NCBI GenBank assembly: GCA_910575055.1 | Contig: CAJTDC010000008.1 | Span: 1 to 64,000 of the forward strand | Origin: Clostridia bacterium | Lineage (GTDB): Bacteria; Bacillota; Clostridia; Lachnospirales; Anaerotignaceae | DNA length: 64,000 bases | Reading direction: 5' to 3' | Shown here: positions 29,179 to 54,676 of the stretch, in pieces | How positions within the stretch are numbered: the stretch's first letter is position 1 | Layout: every line of letters begins with the position of its first letter | Position numbers and translations under genes: made by a program | The notes under the pieces: model-generated | Told to the model about the DNA's origin: nothing | Seen by the model: the letters and a program-made list of their open reading frames with translations, nothing else | Databases searched by the model: none

Positions 29179-29207
29179 TTGCACTTTTTCCAATTACTGA
29201 TTATAAT
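29179..29207 (+). promoter_or_regulatory. Promoter of folC
   Basis: -35 TTGCAC (29179-29184), 17-base spacer, perfect -10 TATAAT (29202-29207). Transcription should begin near 29214, giving a leader of about 150 bases that holds the structure at 29230-29331. Confidence 0.65.
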
Positions 29208-29229
29208 TATATTTCAGATAGTAATGTTA

Positions 29230-29331
29230 GTATGGTGATAGTGCAGCCGTTTCTAAAGTAAAAGAATTTAGTGGGAGCAAAGCTCCCACTAAGGTTCTTT
29301 ACTTGGTAAAGAACCTTATACTACACTATAC
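29230..29331 (+). ncRNA. Structured folC leader element (candidate riboregulator)
   Basis: An outer helix pairs 29230-29242 with 29320-29331 (12 pairs, one bulged A, one G-U). Inside lie two perfect hairpins with three-base loops: 29268-29292 (11 pairs) and 29293-29315 (10 pairs). A competing helix pairs 29256-29266 with 29295-29304 (10 pairs, one bulge); it would enclose the first hairpin and abolish the second. Mutually exclusive stems are what one expects of a switch. It has no U-run, so it is not a terminator. It does not match the THF riboswitch consensus as I know it. A mobile repeat is the main alternative. Confidence 0.5.
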
Positions 29332-29366
29332 AAGTACAAAAGCAAAACAAATTTAAGGGGGTAATT

Positions 29367-30662
29367 ATGAACTATCAGCAAGCCTTAGCATATATCAATC
29401 AAATTTCTTCATTTCGCTCTACAACAACACTTGGACTGTCAAGAATACAACAACTTTTAAAAAAAATGGGAAATCCTCAAAAACAACTAAAATGTATTCA
29501 TATTGCAGGTACAAATGGCAAAGGTTCTGCTTGTGCTATGTTGCAAAACATACTGACTCAAAGTGGTTATAAAACAGCTTTATATACCTCTCCTCATTTA
29601 ATAAAATATAATGAACGCTATCAAATTGATGGTATTTGTATATCTGATGAGAAATTTGCACAAGAAGTTGATTTTGTTAAAAAATATTACACACAAATGA
29701 TTGATGAAGGCTTTGAAACTCCTACATTATTTGAATTTTTAACTGCAATTTGTTTTCACTATTTTGCACAGCAATCTGTAGATATTGTATTATTAGAAAC
29801 GGGCTTAGGCGGTTTGTCTGATGCCACTAATGTAATTGAAAAACCCCTTCTTTGTTTAATTATGTCTATTGGTATGGACCATATGGAATTTTTAGGAGAT
29901 ACCATTGAAAAAATTGCAGAAGAAAAAGCAGGAATTATAAAACAAAATTGTGCTGTAGCATTGTATCCTCAGAAGAATTTAGTATATAATAAAATAGCAG
30001 ATATTTGTAAACAAAAACAGTCTCCTCTTTATGACTTGCAACATAATGTTAAAACAAAAATACTCTTACAAAATTTAGAAAAAACAATATTTTCTGTATC
30101 TACAAAGTATTTTCACTATGATATGGTAAACTTGTCATTATTAGGAGATTATCAAATACAAAACTGTATTACTGTGCTAATAGCTTGTCACGTATTGAAA
30201 CAATACGGCTTGCATATCACAAAACAATCTATATTAAGTGGTATTGAAAAAACAAATTGGCCAGGCAGAATGGAAGTCATACAACATAATCCTATTGTGA
30301 TATTAGATGGAGCACATAATATAGATGGCATTATTATGCTTTCTCGTTCTATCAAAAAATATTTTAAACATAAAAAAATAACATTGCTTATAGGCGTATT
30401 GAGGGATAAAGAATACCAAAAAATGATTGATAATATACTTCCTATGGTAGACACTGTAATATTGACAGAACCTATGAGTAATAGAAAATTAAATATCGAA
30501 AAATTAGAAAAAATAACACTTTGTTTTCATAAAAAAGTACTAAAAAATGTTCATATAAAAGAAGCATATCAAACAGCATTATCTGTTACAGCAAAAAAAG
30601 ATGTATTACTTTGCTGTGGTTCTCTTTATATGATTGGAGAAATCAAAGCAACACAAATATAA
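29367..30662 (+). CDS. folC: Folylpolyglutamate synthase / dihydrofolate synthase
   Basis: A 431-residue cytoplasmic ligase of the Mur family. It adds glutamate to dihydropteroate and/or lengthens the glutamate tail of folates, using ATP. Seen are the P-loop HIAGTNGKGS (about 47-56), YTSPHLIKYNERYQI, TLFEFLTAICFHYF, ETGLGGLSDATNV (a variant of the usual GLGGRLDATN) and the C-terminal-domain opening VILDGAHNIDGI. The start follows TAAGGGGG. The gene stands alone, between its own promoter/leader and a terminator. Whether it has both activities cannot be told from the sequence. Confidence 0.95.
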   Translation: MNYQQALAYINQISSFRSTTTLGLSRIQQLLKKMGNPQKQLKCIHIAGTNGKGSACAMLQNILTQSGYKTALYTSPHLIKYNERYQIDGICISDEKFAQEVDFVKKYYTQMIDEGFETPTLFEFLTAICFHYFAQQSVDIVLLETGLGGLSDATNVIEKPLLCLIMSIGMDHMEFLGDTIEKIAEEKAGIIKQNCAVALYPQKNLVYNKIADICKQKQSPLYDLQHNVKTKILLQNLEKTIFSVSTKYFHYDMVNLSLLGDYQIQNCITVLIACHVLKQYGLHITKQSILSGIEKTNWPGRMEVIQHNPIVILDGAHNIDGIIMLSRSIKKYFKHKKITLLIGVLRDKEYQKMIDNILPMVDTVILTEPMSNRKLNIEKLEKITLCFHKKVLKNVHIKEAYQTALSVTAKKDVLLCCGSLYMIGEIKATQI

Positions 30663-51564: not shown

Positions 51565-51978
51565 ATGATGAAATTAGATAGTAATGCACATTCGGTATTC
51601 AGCTTAAACTATCATTTGATACTTGTAGTAAAATATAGAAGGAAAGTAATAAATGATGAAATATCTAATAGAGCGAAAGAAATATTTGAATATATCAGTC
51701 CTAAATATAACATAACATTACAACAATGGAATTATGATATAGACCATGTGCATATACTTTTCAAAGCACACCCTAATACAGAAATAAGTAAATTCATAAA
51801 CGCATATAAAAGTGCAAGTAGTAGATTAATAAAAAAAGAATATCCACAGATTAGACAAAAGCTGTGGAAAGAATATTTTTGGAGTCAAAGTTTTTGCTTG
51901 ATTTCGACAGGTGAAGCTAATATTGAAACCATAATAAAATATATAGAAAGGCAGGGGGAAAAACATGAAACAAAATAA
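51565..51978 (+). CDS. tnpA: IS200/IS605 Y1 transposase TnpA
   Basis: A 137-residue HUH-type single-strand transposase. The metal-binding pair is His61/His63 (DHVHILFKAHP), and the nucleophile is Tyr126 in IIKYIERQ. The N-terminus reads NYHLILVVKYRRKVI, as in the family. It cuts and rejoins the top strand at both element ends as a dimer. Its last 14 bases overlap tnpB. It appears complete, with normal family length. Confidence 0.95.
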   Translation: MMKLDSNAHSVFSLNYHLILVVKYRRKVINDEISNRAKEIFEYISPKYNITLQQWNYDIDHVHILFKAHPNTEISKFINAYKSASSRLIKKEYPQIRQKLWKEYFWSQSFCLISTGEANIETIIKYIERQGEKHETK

Positions 51979-53065
51979 AGCATATAAATTTAGAATCTAT
52001 CCAAATGAAGAACAAAAGATAATATTTGCTAAAACTTTTGGCTGTACAAGATTTATCTACAATAAGATGTTATCCGATAAGATAGATTACTACAAACAAA
52101 CGAAACAAAAATTAAATAATACTCCTGCTCAATACAAGATTGAATTTGAATGGCTTAAAGAAGTAGATAGTTTAGCACTTGCTAATGCTCAAATGAATTT
52201 ACAAAAAGCTTTTACTAACTTTTTCATCAATACTAAAAGTGGATTTCCAAAATTTAAGTGTAAGCATAAAAATAAAAAAAGTTACACTACAAATAATCAA
52301 AGAAATACTATCACTTTAGAAAATGGTTTTCTAAAGTTACCAAAATTAGTGTATTTAGTAAAAGTAAAGCAACATAGACAAATACCTAAAGATTATAAAA
52401 TAAAATCTGTGACAATAAGCCAAACTCCAAGTGAAAAATATTATGCAAGTATTCTATGTGAGTATGATAATCAAATACAAACAATAGAACCTAAAACCTT
52501 TTTAGGTTTAGATTTTTCTATGAAAGAATTATACGTTGCAAGTGATGAAACTTCAGCAGACTATCCAAGGTATTTTAGAAAATCTCAAGAAAAGTTAGCA
52601 AGGGAGCAGAGAAAACTCTCAAGATGTGTAATAGGTAGCAAGAACAGAGCCAAACAAGGCTTAAAAGTTGCTAAATTACATGAAAAAGTATCTAATCAAA
52701 GAAAAGATTTCTTACATAAACTATCGAGGCAGATAGCCAATGCCTATGATTGTATATGTATTGAAGATTTAGATATGAAAGCTATGTCACAAGCATTAAA
52801 TTTTGGGAAATCTGTTGCTGACAATGGATGGGGTATATTTACCACATTTCTAAAATATAAACTTGAAAATTTAGGAAAACAACTGATTAAAATAGATAGA
52901 TGGTTTCCAAGTTCAAAAACTTGTAGTAATTGCAATCATATCAAGGAAGATTTATCACTAAATGATAGAATATATCATTGTGATTGCTGTGGTATTACTA
53001 TCAATCGTGATTACAATGCAAGTATAAATATTAGAAATCAAGGTATAAAGTTAGTAATATCTTAG
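51965..53065 (+). CDS. tnpB: TnpB RNA-guided nuclease
   Basis: A 366-residue protein of the family ancestral to Cas12. RuvC residues are intact: Asp183 (FLGLDFSMKELY), Glu267 (CICIEDLDMK) and Asp349 (INRDYNASINIR). The zinc finger has Cys320, Cys323, Cys339 and Cys342 (CSNCNHI, HCDCCG). The N-terminal OTCC/helix-turn-helix part opens MKQNKAYKFRIYPNEEQ. The start follows GGGGGAAAAAC inside tnpA. TnpB proteins cut DNA directed by an omega RNA made from the 3' part of the gene and the right end, which favours retention of the element. Confidence 0.95.
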   Translation: MKQNKAYKFRIYPNEEQKIIFAKTFGCTRFIYNKMLSDKIDYYKQTKQKLNNTPAQYKIEFEWLKEVDSLALANAQMNLQKAFTNFFINTKSGFPKFKCKHKNKKSYTTNNQRNTITLENGFLKLPKLVYLVKVKQHRQIPKDYKIKSVTISQTPSEKYYASILCEYDNQIQTIEPKTFLGLDFSMKELYVASDETSADYPRYFRKSQEKLAREQRKLSRCVIGSKNRAKQGLKVAKLHEKVSNQRKDFLHKLSRQIANAYDCICIEDLDMKAMSQALNFGKSVADNGWGIFTTFLKYKLENLGKQLIKIDRWFPSSKTCSNCNHIKEDLSLNDRIYHCDCCGITINRDYNASINIRNQGIKLVIS

Positions 53066-53404: not shown

Positions 53405-54358
53405 TTATTTTATTGAATTAAAAGGGATATATTCAGGAGTTCCATCTACTCTTTCAATTTCAAAAGGTGTTACTTGATAAACATAATAATTTAACCAATT
53501 AGAAAATAATAAATTACTATGACTTTTCCAAGTTACAACAGGTTGTTTATTTGGGTCATCATTTTCAAAATAATGCTTTGGAAAAGGTACATCATTCCTT
53601 TTTCCTAAATCTCTTACATATTCCTCTTTTAATGTAAGAGGGTCATATTCAGAATGTCCCATAACAAAAATACGACTACCGTGACGAGAAGAAGCAATGT
53701 ATAATCCTGCTTCTTCTGACGCAGAAAGTACTTCTAATTTTGGCTCTTTATAAATATCTTCTAATTTTACCTCTGTATGGCGAGAATGAGGAGCATAAAA
53801 TTCATCATCAAATCCTCTCACTAAATCAGCACTTTTTACACGTACTGTATGTGGAAAAACACCAAACATTTTTTCACATAAAGTATGTTTTTGTATACCA
53901 TAATGATAATAAAGACCTGCTTGTGCTCCCCAACAGATATGTAGAGTAGATGTCACATTTGTTCTTGACCATTCCATAATCTCCTTTAGTTCTTCCCAAT
54001 AGTTTACTTCTTCAAAAGGTAAATCTTCCACTGGTGCTCCTGTGATAATCATACCATCTAATTTTTTATGTTTTATTTCATCAAAACTATGATAAAAACT
54101 TTTTAAATGTTCTGGAGCTGTATTTTTTGTTTGGTGATTTTTAGGAAACAATAATGTAATATTAATTTGTAATGGTGTATTTCCTAAAAGACGCAGTAGT
54201 TGTGTTTCTGTTGTTTCTTTTAATGGCATTAAATTCAGTATAGCAATTTCTAAAGGTCGTATGTCTTGGTGAAAGGCTCTTTCTTCTCCCATTACAAATA
54301 TATGCTCTTTTTCCAATATTTCTTTTGCTGGTAAATTGTCTGGTATTCTAATTGGCAT
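53405..54358 (-). CDS. metA: Homoserine O-acetyltransferase (MetA family)
   Basis: A 317-residue enzyme that starts methionine synthesis by acylating homoserine. Family motifs: [14 protein letters not shown] at the N-terminus, nucleophile Cys142 ([16 protein letters not shown]), and the His-Glu pair in VMGHSEYD. Position 111, in TGAPVE, is Glu; in this family Glu111 goes with acetyl-CoA and Gly111 with succinyl-CoA, so an acetyltransferase is predicted although the gene is called metA. The start has AGGAGG. A T-box leader lies directly upstream, linking expression to tRNA charging. Confidence 0.94.
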
Positions 54359-54389: not shown

Positions 54390-54670
54390 TAAAAAAAGCC
54401 TTCACAGGATTTCTCCTATGAAGGCGTATTAACGCTGTACCACTTCACTTCATTTTCTGAAAAAAACAGAAAACCTCATTTCAGTACGTCCTTTTTATAA
54501 AGGATAATACCGTTTCGCTGTAACAGGCGAACCTGTTGTAGCCTAGACCTAAAAGGTTTCGGTACACCATTCAAGAGCCATTTTCAGCACTGTTTCTTCT
54601 GCCTTTTCCCACCATATTTCAAGGCTCTCTGAAAGATTTCACAAGCTTACTTTCTCCATCATTACGTTTA
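54390..54670 (-). promoter_or_regulatory. T-box leader of metA
   Basis: Reading leftward from about 54670: a stem I with AGAAAGTAAGC and, on the returning side, CTTGAATGGTG; further stems; then the T-box GTGGTACAGCG (54444-54434). The antiterminator pairs TGAAG with CTTCA and GCG with CGC. The competing terminator GCCTTCA.../TGAAGGC (54398-54425) runs into U7 (54391-54397). The specifier is read as AUG (54570-54568), that is methionine, in line with metA. A register shift by one base would read UGG (Trp). Confidence 0.88.
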
Positions 54671-54676
54671 AAATTT

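Follow-up and report, generated by a model that had tools for sequence, protein, structure and literature searches.

Stable hairpins near the 5' end of bacterial mRNAs are exemplified by the 5' stabilising stem-loops of the ompA and aprE type. As for folate genes, THF-I riboswitches (RF01831) control folC, folE and folT in many Firmicutes, and THF-II (the folE motif) is a short two-helix RNA of Gram-negative bacteria with the ribosome-binding site in the right arm of its P1 (PMC9881143). Here we describe a leader of folC in a 64 kb window (the whole stretch of DNA that was analysed) from a species designated G000, which we compared with four other members of its genus g1 (G001-G004) and with the nearest member of another genus (G005). 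No published folC leader of such a sort was found in the openly accessible literature. Searches of the leader against Rfam, at the gathering score and at E up to 5, gave only weak, unrelated hairpin-family matches far below gathering; RF01831 was not matched even at E up to 5, in agreement with a preliminary description of the locus which noted that the features of the THF riboswitch are lacking. The leader is thus absent from the Rfam catalogue, and, as a folded 5' UTR, it is a real, lineage-specific feature of a housekeeping gene. Elsewhere in the window lie an ordinary T-box leader (RF00230, 93.7 bits; 54417-54671, minus strand) upstream of a homoserine O-succinyltransferase-like gene (53405-54358, minus strand; metA by eye), and an ORF (51965-53065, plus strand) for a TnpB/OrfB-like protein of the IS200/IS605 type, judged by sequence alone.

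The sigma-70-type promoter of folC consists of a -35 box (TTGCAC, 29179-29184), a 17-nt spacer and a -10 box (TATAAT, 29202-29207), from the position of which we infer that transcription starts at around 29213-29215. The promoter and the ensuing leader of about 150 bases reported in the preliminary description are both present in the sequence. The locus comprises the following features, all on the plus strand.

29179-29207, plus: folC promoter, TTGCAC-17-TATAAT, read from the sequence; the same promoter occurs in each of the five congeners, whether they carry the leader or not
29213-29366, plus: folC 5' UTR, as inferred from promoter and start codon; leader segment in three of the five congeners
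29230-29243, plus: 5' strand of helix P1 with A29238 bulged, from the MFE fold; a 6-pair core, UAUGGU/ACYAUA, is common to three species
29256-29266, plus: A-rich 5' strand of a competing helix, which extends P2 and pairs with 29295-29304
29268-29292, plus: P2 hairpin, TTAGTGGGAGC AAA GCTCCCACTAA, 10-11 pairs, from the fold; flagged as terminator-like on both strands
29290-29318, plus: P3 hairpin with as many as 13 perfect pairs in the window's species, from fold, hairpin scan and alignment
29293-29304, plus: U-rich tract GGTTCTTTACTT directly 3' of P2, also the 5' arm of P3 and the 3' strand of the competing helix
29319-29331, plus: 3' strand of P1, from the MFE fold; 6-pair core kept in three species with one G-U to G-C change
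29355-29361, plus: Shine-Dalgarno sequence (SD) AAGGGGG of folC, read from the sequence; largely free of pairing in the window's species, whichever conformer forms
29367-30662, plus: folC, 431 aa, ATG at 29367; folylpolyglutamate/dihydrofolate synthase family by homology

The predicted fold largely agrees with the preliminary description. Its closing helix exists, with 13 pairs and one bulged A (29230-29243 with 29319-29331) instead of 12 pairs. The two perfect hairpins with 3-base loops were recovered as P2 (29269-29278 with 29282-29291, 10 pairs) and P3 (29292-29302 with 29306-29316, 11 pairs); they directly abut, and extending P3 to 13 pairs (29290-29318) costs P2 two pairs. The alternative 10-pair helix was also confirmed: 29256-29266 pairs with 29295-29304 (10 pairs, one bulge), using the 5' arm of P3 and thereby excluding P3. 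The plus strand of 29214-29375 folds at -44.0 kcal/mol against a mean of -29.45 (sd 3.64) for dinucleotide shuffles (z -4.0; 0 of 200 shuffles as good), and the minus strand, compared in the same manner, folds equally well or better (z -6.1), which is what a palindromic stretch would be expected to do. As a hairpin scan detected only 7 long, near-perfect, non-overlapping hairpins in the 64 kb, two that abut and have 3-nt loops are exceptional. Taken alone, P1 in the window's species is not beyond chance (p 0.12 against shuffles; 0.56 and 0.06 in the other two leader-bearing species), nor does the competing helix rise above chance in G000 and G001 (p 0.16); in G002 it does slightly better (p 0.02). 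A candidate upstream ORF in the leader, AUGUUAGUAUGGUGA (MLVW), was discarded, as it has no visible ribosome-binding site and by eye reads differently in G002.

DNA search, pattern search with 2 mismatches and the covariance model all placed the leader at a single locus of its own genome (3.55 Mb, 155 contigs), and the second BLAST or pattern match is the same palindrome on the opposite strand. A genome copy-number count had been proposed to separate a leader RNA from a mobile repeat, and its outcome favours the former: being single-copy, the leader does not belong to a mobile repeat family, and a MITE- or REP-like element was rejected, since each genome has one copy and the matches on both strands fall at the same place. 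Orthologous leaders precede folC in three of the five genomes of the genus, namely G000, G001 (89% identical to G000 over 162 nt) and G002 (70% identical over the piece aligned by BLAST; folC protein 78% identical). In G003 and G004 (folC 67-68%), AGATAATAGATTTAGGAGGTTTATAATATG comes immediately after the same promoter, leaving a 5' UTR of ~30 nt and no leader, and G005, behind a promoter of this kind, likewise has a short 5' UTR with the leader absent. Judging from these outgroups, a single, recent gain of the ~120-140 nt leader in the ancestor of G000-G002 is probable, since several losses would otherwise have to be assumed. The comparisons show the leader to be a single-copy 5' UTR of the folC mRNA, with a predicted structure, in three congeners.

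In the covariance search suggested earlier, a model built from the three sequences brought up nothing believable as a relative among 57 genomes of the family, 392 of the order and 391 of the class, a search in which distant relatives may be missed because genomes were sampled from the larger groups, filters were strict and a three-sequence model is weak. Two matches, in G017 (E 0.0018, next to where an unrelated gene ends) and G033 (E 0.015), were set aside as isolated hairpins that match poorly outside P2. Phage, plasmid and viral collections (viral contigs by exact pattern) yielded nothing meaningful, and none of the other folC leaders of the family is similar to that of G000-G002. Genus g17 of the same family (L071, L074, L085, L089) has a long folC leader after the promoter, unrelated in sequence to the G000 leader and without an Rfam match; a closing helix, CCAAAAUUU...AUUUUGG, occurs in 4 of the 8 genomes examined, and this is a candidate for a second, independent structured folC leader.

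The alignment of the three leaders shows which parts have been kept. In P2, 100% of cells are paired; G002 shows one compensatory change there (G-C to A-U) and one change from A-U to G-U. P1 is paired in 92% of cells with two one-sided changes, and P3 in 88%, G002 having two interior mismatches and an outer one; overall, the structures with P3 and with the competing helix score the same (93%). P1 and P2 can form in all three species although the interior of the leader varies, and the junctions change rapidly (15/30). The preliminary description had made its reading depend on compensatory changes in related folC leaders. These do occur, as the one double change and the one G-U in P2 only; in covariation measures, neither the P3 nor the competing structure showed an excess over shuffled columns with three sequences. 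P2 together with the following tract GGUUCUUUACU is identical at 32 of 36 positions between G000 and G002, as compared with 62 of 103 four-fold sites of folC (Fisher p 9e-4) and 25 of 50 positions elsewhere in the interior of the leader (p 1e-4), the region having been picked post hoc on inspection of the alignment. Within the tract, GGTTCTTTACT is identical in all three leader-bearing species. As GGUUCUUUACU remained unchanged while the opposing 3' arm of P3 diverged (7/13 with the loop), it is seemingly constrained for something other than P3. For the three species, the alignment shows that the predicted conserved core is P2 with the U-rich tract and not the three-way junction, and that the surroundings are fast-changing.

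The preliminary description took the leader for a three-way-junction switch controlling translation, which our predictions do not bear out. Only G000 and G001 form both P3 and the competing helix well: G000 favours the P3 conformer by 3.6 kcal/mol, the two are nearly balanced in G001, and G002, with P3 broken, favours the competing helix by 8 kcal/mol. The SD sits 24 nt past P1, outside the fold, in an A-rich unstructured stretch in the window's species, where its unpaired probability is 0.64-0.91 with either conformer enforced. In G002, both conformers pair the first four bases of the SD and leave the last three unpaired; some coupling appears in G001 (~0.1 vs ~0.5), through pairing that is not common to G000 and G002. 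Pairing of AAGGGGG with GCUCYC or CCUU in the arms of P2 and P3 is possible on paper, and was rejected as an anti-SD because the ensembles predicted for the window's species do not contain it and because it differs among the three species. Neither a terminator nor an anti-SD is exchanged between the conformers in a manner conserved in the three species. The SD is not coupled to the switch, which leaves the three-way-junction switch unsupported.

P2 also has features of a terminator. A scan of 450 bp flagged P2 with its tail on both strands (2 matches; 0.1 expected from shuffles), the plus-strand tail being GUUCUUUACU. As a U tract, the tail GTTCTTTA is poor, with only 5 T in 8 and interrupted, while the tails of two further terminator-like hairpins of the window contain 6-7 T in 8. 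No conserved antiterminator was seen in the three leaders. The joint conservation of P2 and the U-rich tract, which lie between promoter and gene, and the decay of P3 would best suit a partial terminator-like brake. We therefore favour, tentatively, the reading of the leader as a single-copy structured folC 5' UTR, gained once and recently, and acting as a weak, partial, terminator-like brake centred on P2. If this is the case, ~120-140 nt would have been inserted between the older promoter and ribosome-binding site in the common ancestor of the three species, and the leader would act, if at all, in cis as RNA. P2 would fold immediately on being transcribed, at the U-rich tract a share of the RNA polymerases would come to a halt, the others would continue through into folC, with P1 and P3 compacting the read-through leader and leaving the SD free. 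Such a brake may exert constant damping or be regulated.

The main rival is that the leader is a functionless, hairpin-rich mobile or foreign fragment inserted once, the fold of which reflects its palindromic origin. We regard this as rather unlikely. The clean presence and absence among congeners and outgroup, the palindromic nature of both strands (minus strand z -6.1), the decay of P3 in G002 and the rapidly changing junctions would all be expected of it; however, no second copy was found in the three genomes, in the order and class samples, in phage and plasmid records or in viral contigs (by exact pattern), and P2 with its tract is conserved above four-fold sites.

Another close rival, a constitutive structured 5' UTR, of which the 5' block guards the mRNA from 5'-end-dependent decay or keeps the ribosome-binding region open with no switch or termination, would account for a P1 that starts ~16 nt from the putative transcription start, for the SD of the window's species lying in an unstructured A-rich stretch, and for P1 and P2 being formable in all three species despite the varying interior. 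This explanation also falls short of being probable, as it leaves the sequence conservation of GGUUCUUUACU unexplained and as SD accessibility varies among species.

We consider it doubtful that the leader is a metabolite riboswitch of a new class, sensing folate or another ligand and alternating between P3 and the competing helix. folC is a folate gene, and in G000 and G001 the two exclusive helices can both form and lie no more than 2-4 kcal/mol apart; however, in G002 P3 is poor and loses to the competitor by 8 kcal/mol, in two species the competing helix is no better than chance, neither state consistently hides the SD or a strong terminator, and the junction (15/30) provides no conserved single-stranded stretch as a possible aptamer core. 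The folate genes of the genus bear on this question. RF01831 is carried by 30 of the 58 genomes of the family, and within the genus only by G003 and G004, where the model works well (77 bits) and marks a THF riboswitch at folT, not folC:

L091, 3471-3573, minus: THF riboswitch before the second folT-like gene (RF01831 match), G003/G004
L092, 3062-3163, plus: THF riboswitch before the second folT-like gene (RF01831 match), G003/G004

This folT-like gene follows fhs and folD, as identified by eye from translations. Neither the gene nor its THF riboswitch was found in G000-G002, of which G002 is only 78% complete. The leader occurs exactly in those congeners, and this complementary distribution across the genus is suggestive, as a single evolutionary contrast. 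Another FolT-family gene (ECF S-component, TIGR04518) is present in all five congeners; in G000-G002 (L131, L132, L133), it adjoins by eye a CbiK-like gene, which puts its true substrate in question. Dihydropteroate synthase (TIGR01496) was not found in the five genomes of g1, control genomes being positive; the genus therefore presumably cannot make folate de novo and takes it up. It is attractive to speculate that a cis-regulatory RNA, unrelated to the THF riboswitch and possibly folate-sensing, was newly born at folC in the branch without the THF-controlled folT, a proposal to which we give very little weight. It is highly improbable that the two palindromes just past the promoter (perfect, 11-3-11 and 13-3-13) are DNA operators for a dimeric repressor acting as a roadblock, because all differences in the P2 stem keep pairing and G002 retains P2 through a G-U pair that breaks the DNA palindrome but not the RNA stem, P3 has lost its symmetry in G002, and the genome has no second site.

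As it stands, the leader is a modest, lineage-specific element. It represents a structured mRNA leader that arose within a single genus and separates a promoter and a ribosome-binding site which are both older, and the before-state, still visible in sister species, makes it a test case for the origin of 5' UTR RNA elements. If the leader responds to folate, it would be weightier, because the leader-bearing species are without the THF riboswitch of their sisters.

Compared with known systems, the leader shares with THF-I (RF01831) a three-way-junction 5' leader in Gram-positive bacteria (PMC9881143), but its hairpins are long and perfect, with 3-nt loops, and the THF-I consensus is nowhere apparent. 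Like THF-II, which acts on translation, it precedes a folate gene; its SD, however, lies outside the fold, and it has no Rfam match. Stem-loops of the ompA and aprE type resemble it in being stable hairpins close to the 5' end, whereas our leader is a three-helix block with conserved sequence beside P2. With intrinsic terminators and leader attenuators, it has in common a G+C-rich hairpin between promoter and gene, preceded by an A-rich stretch and followed by a U-rich tract, although this tract is weak and interrupted and no conserved antiterminator was found. On balance, a simple hairpin serving as brake or spacer seems a better description of the leader than a new class of regulator.
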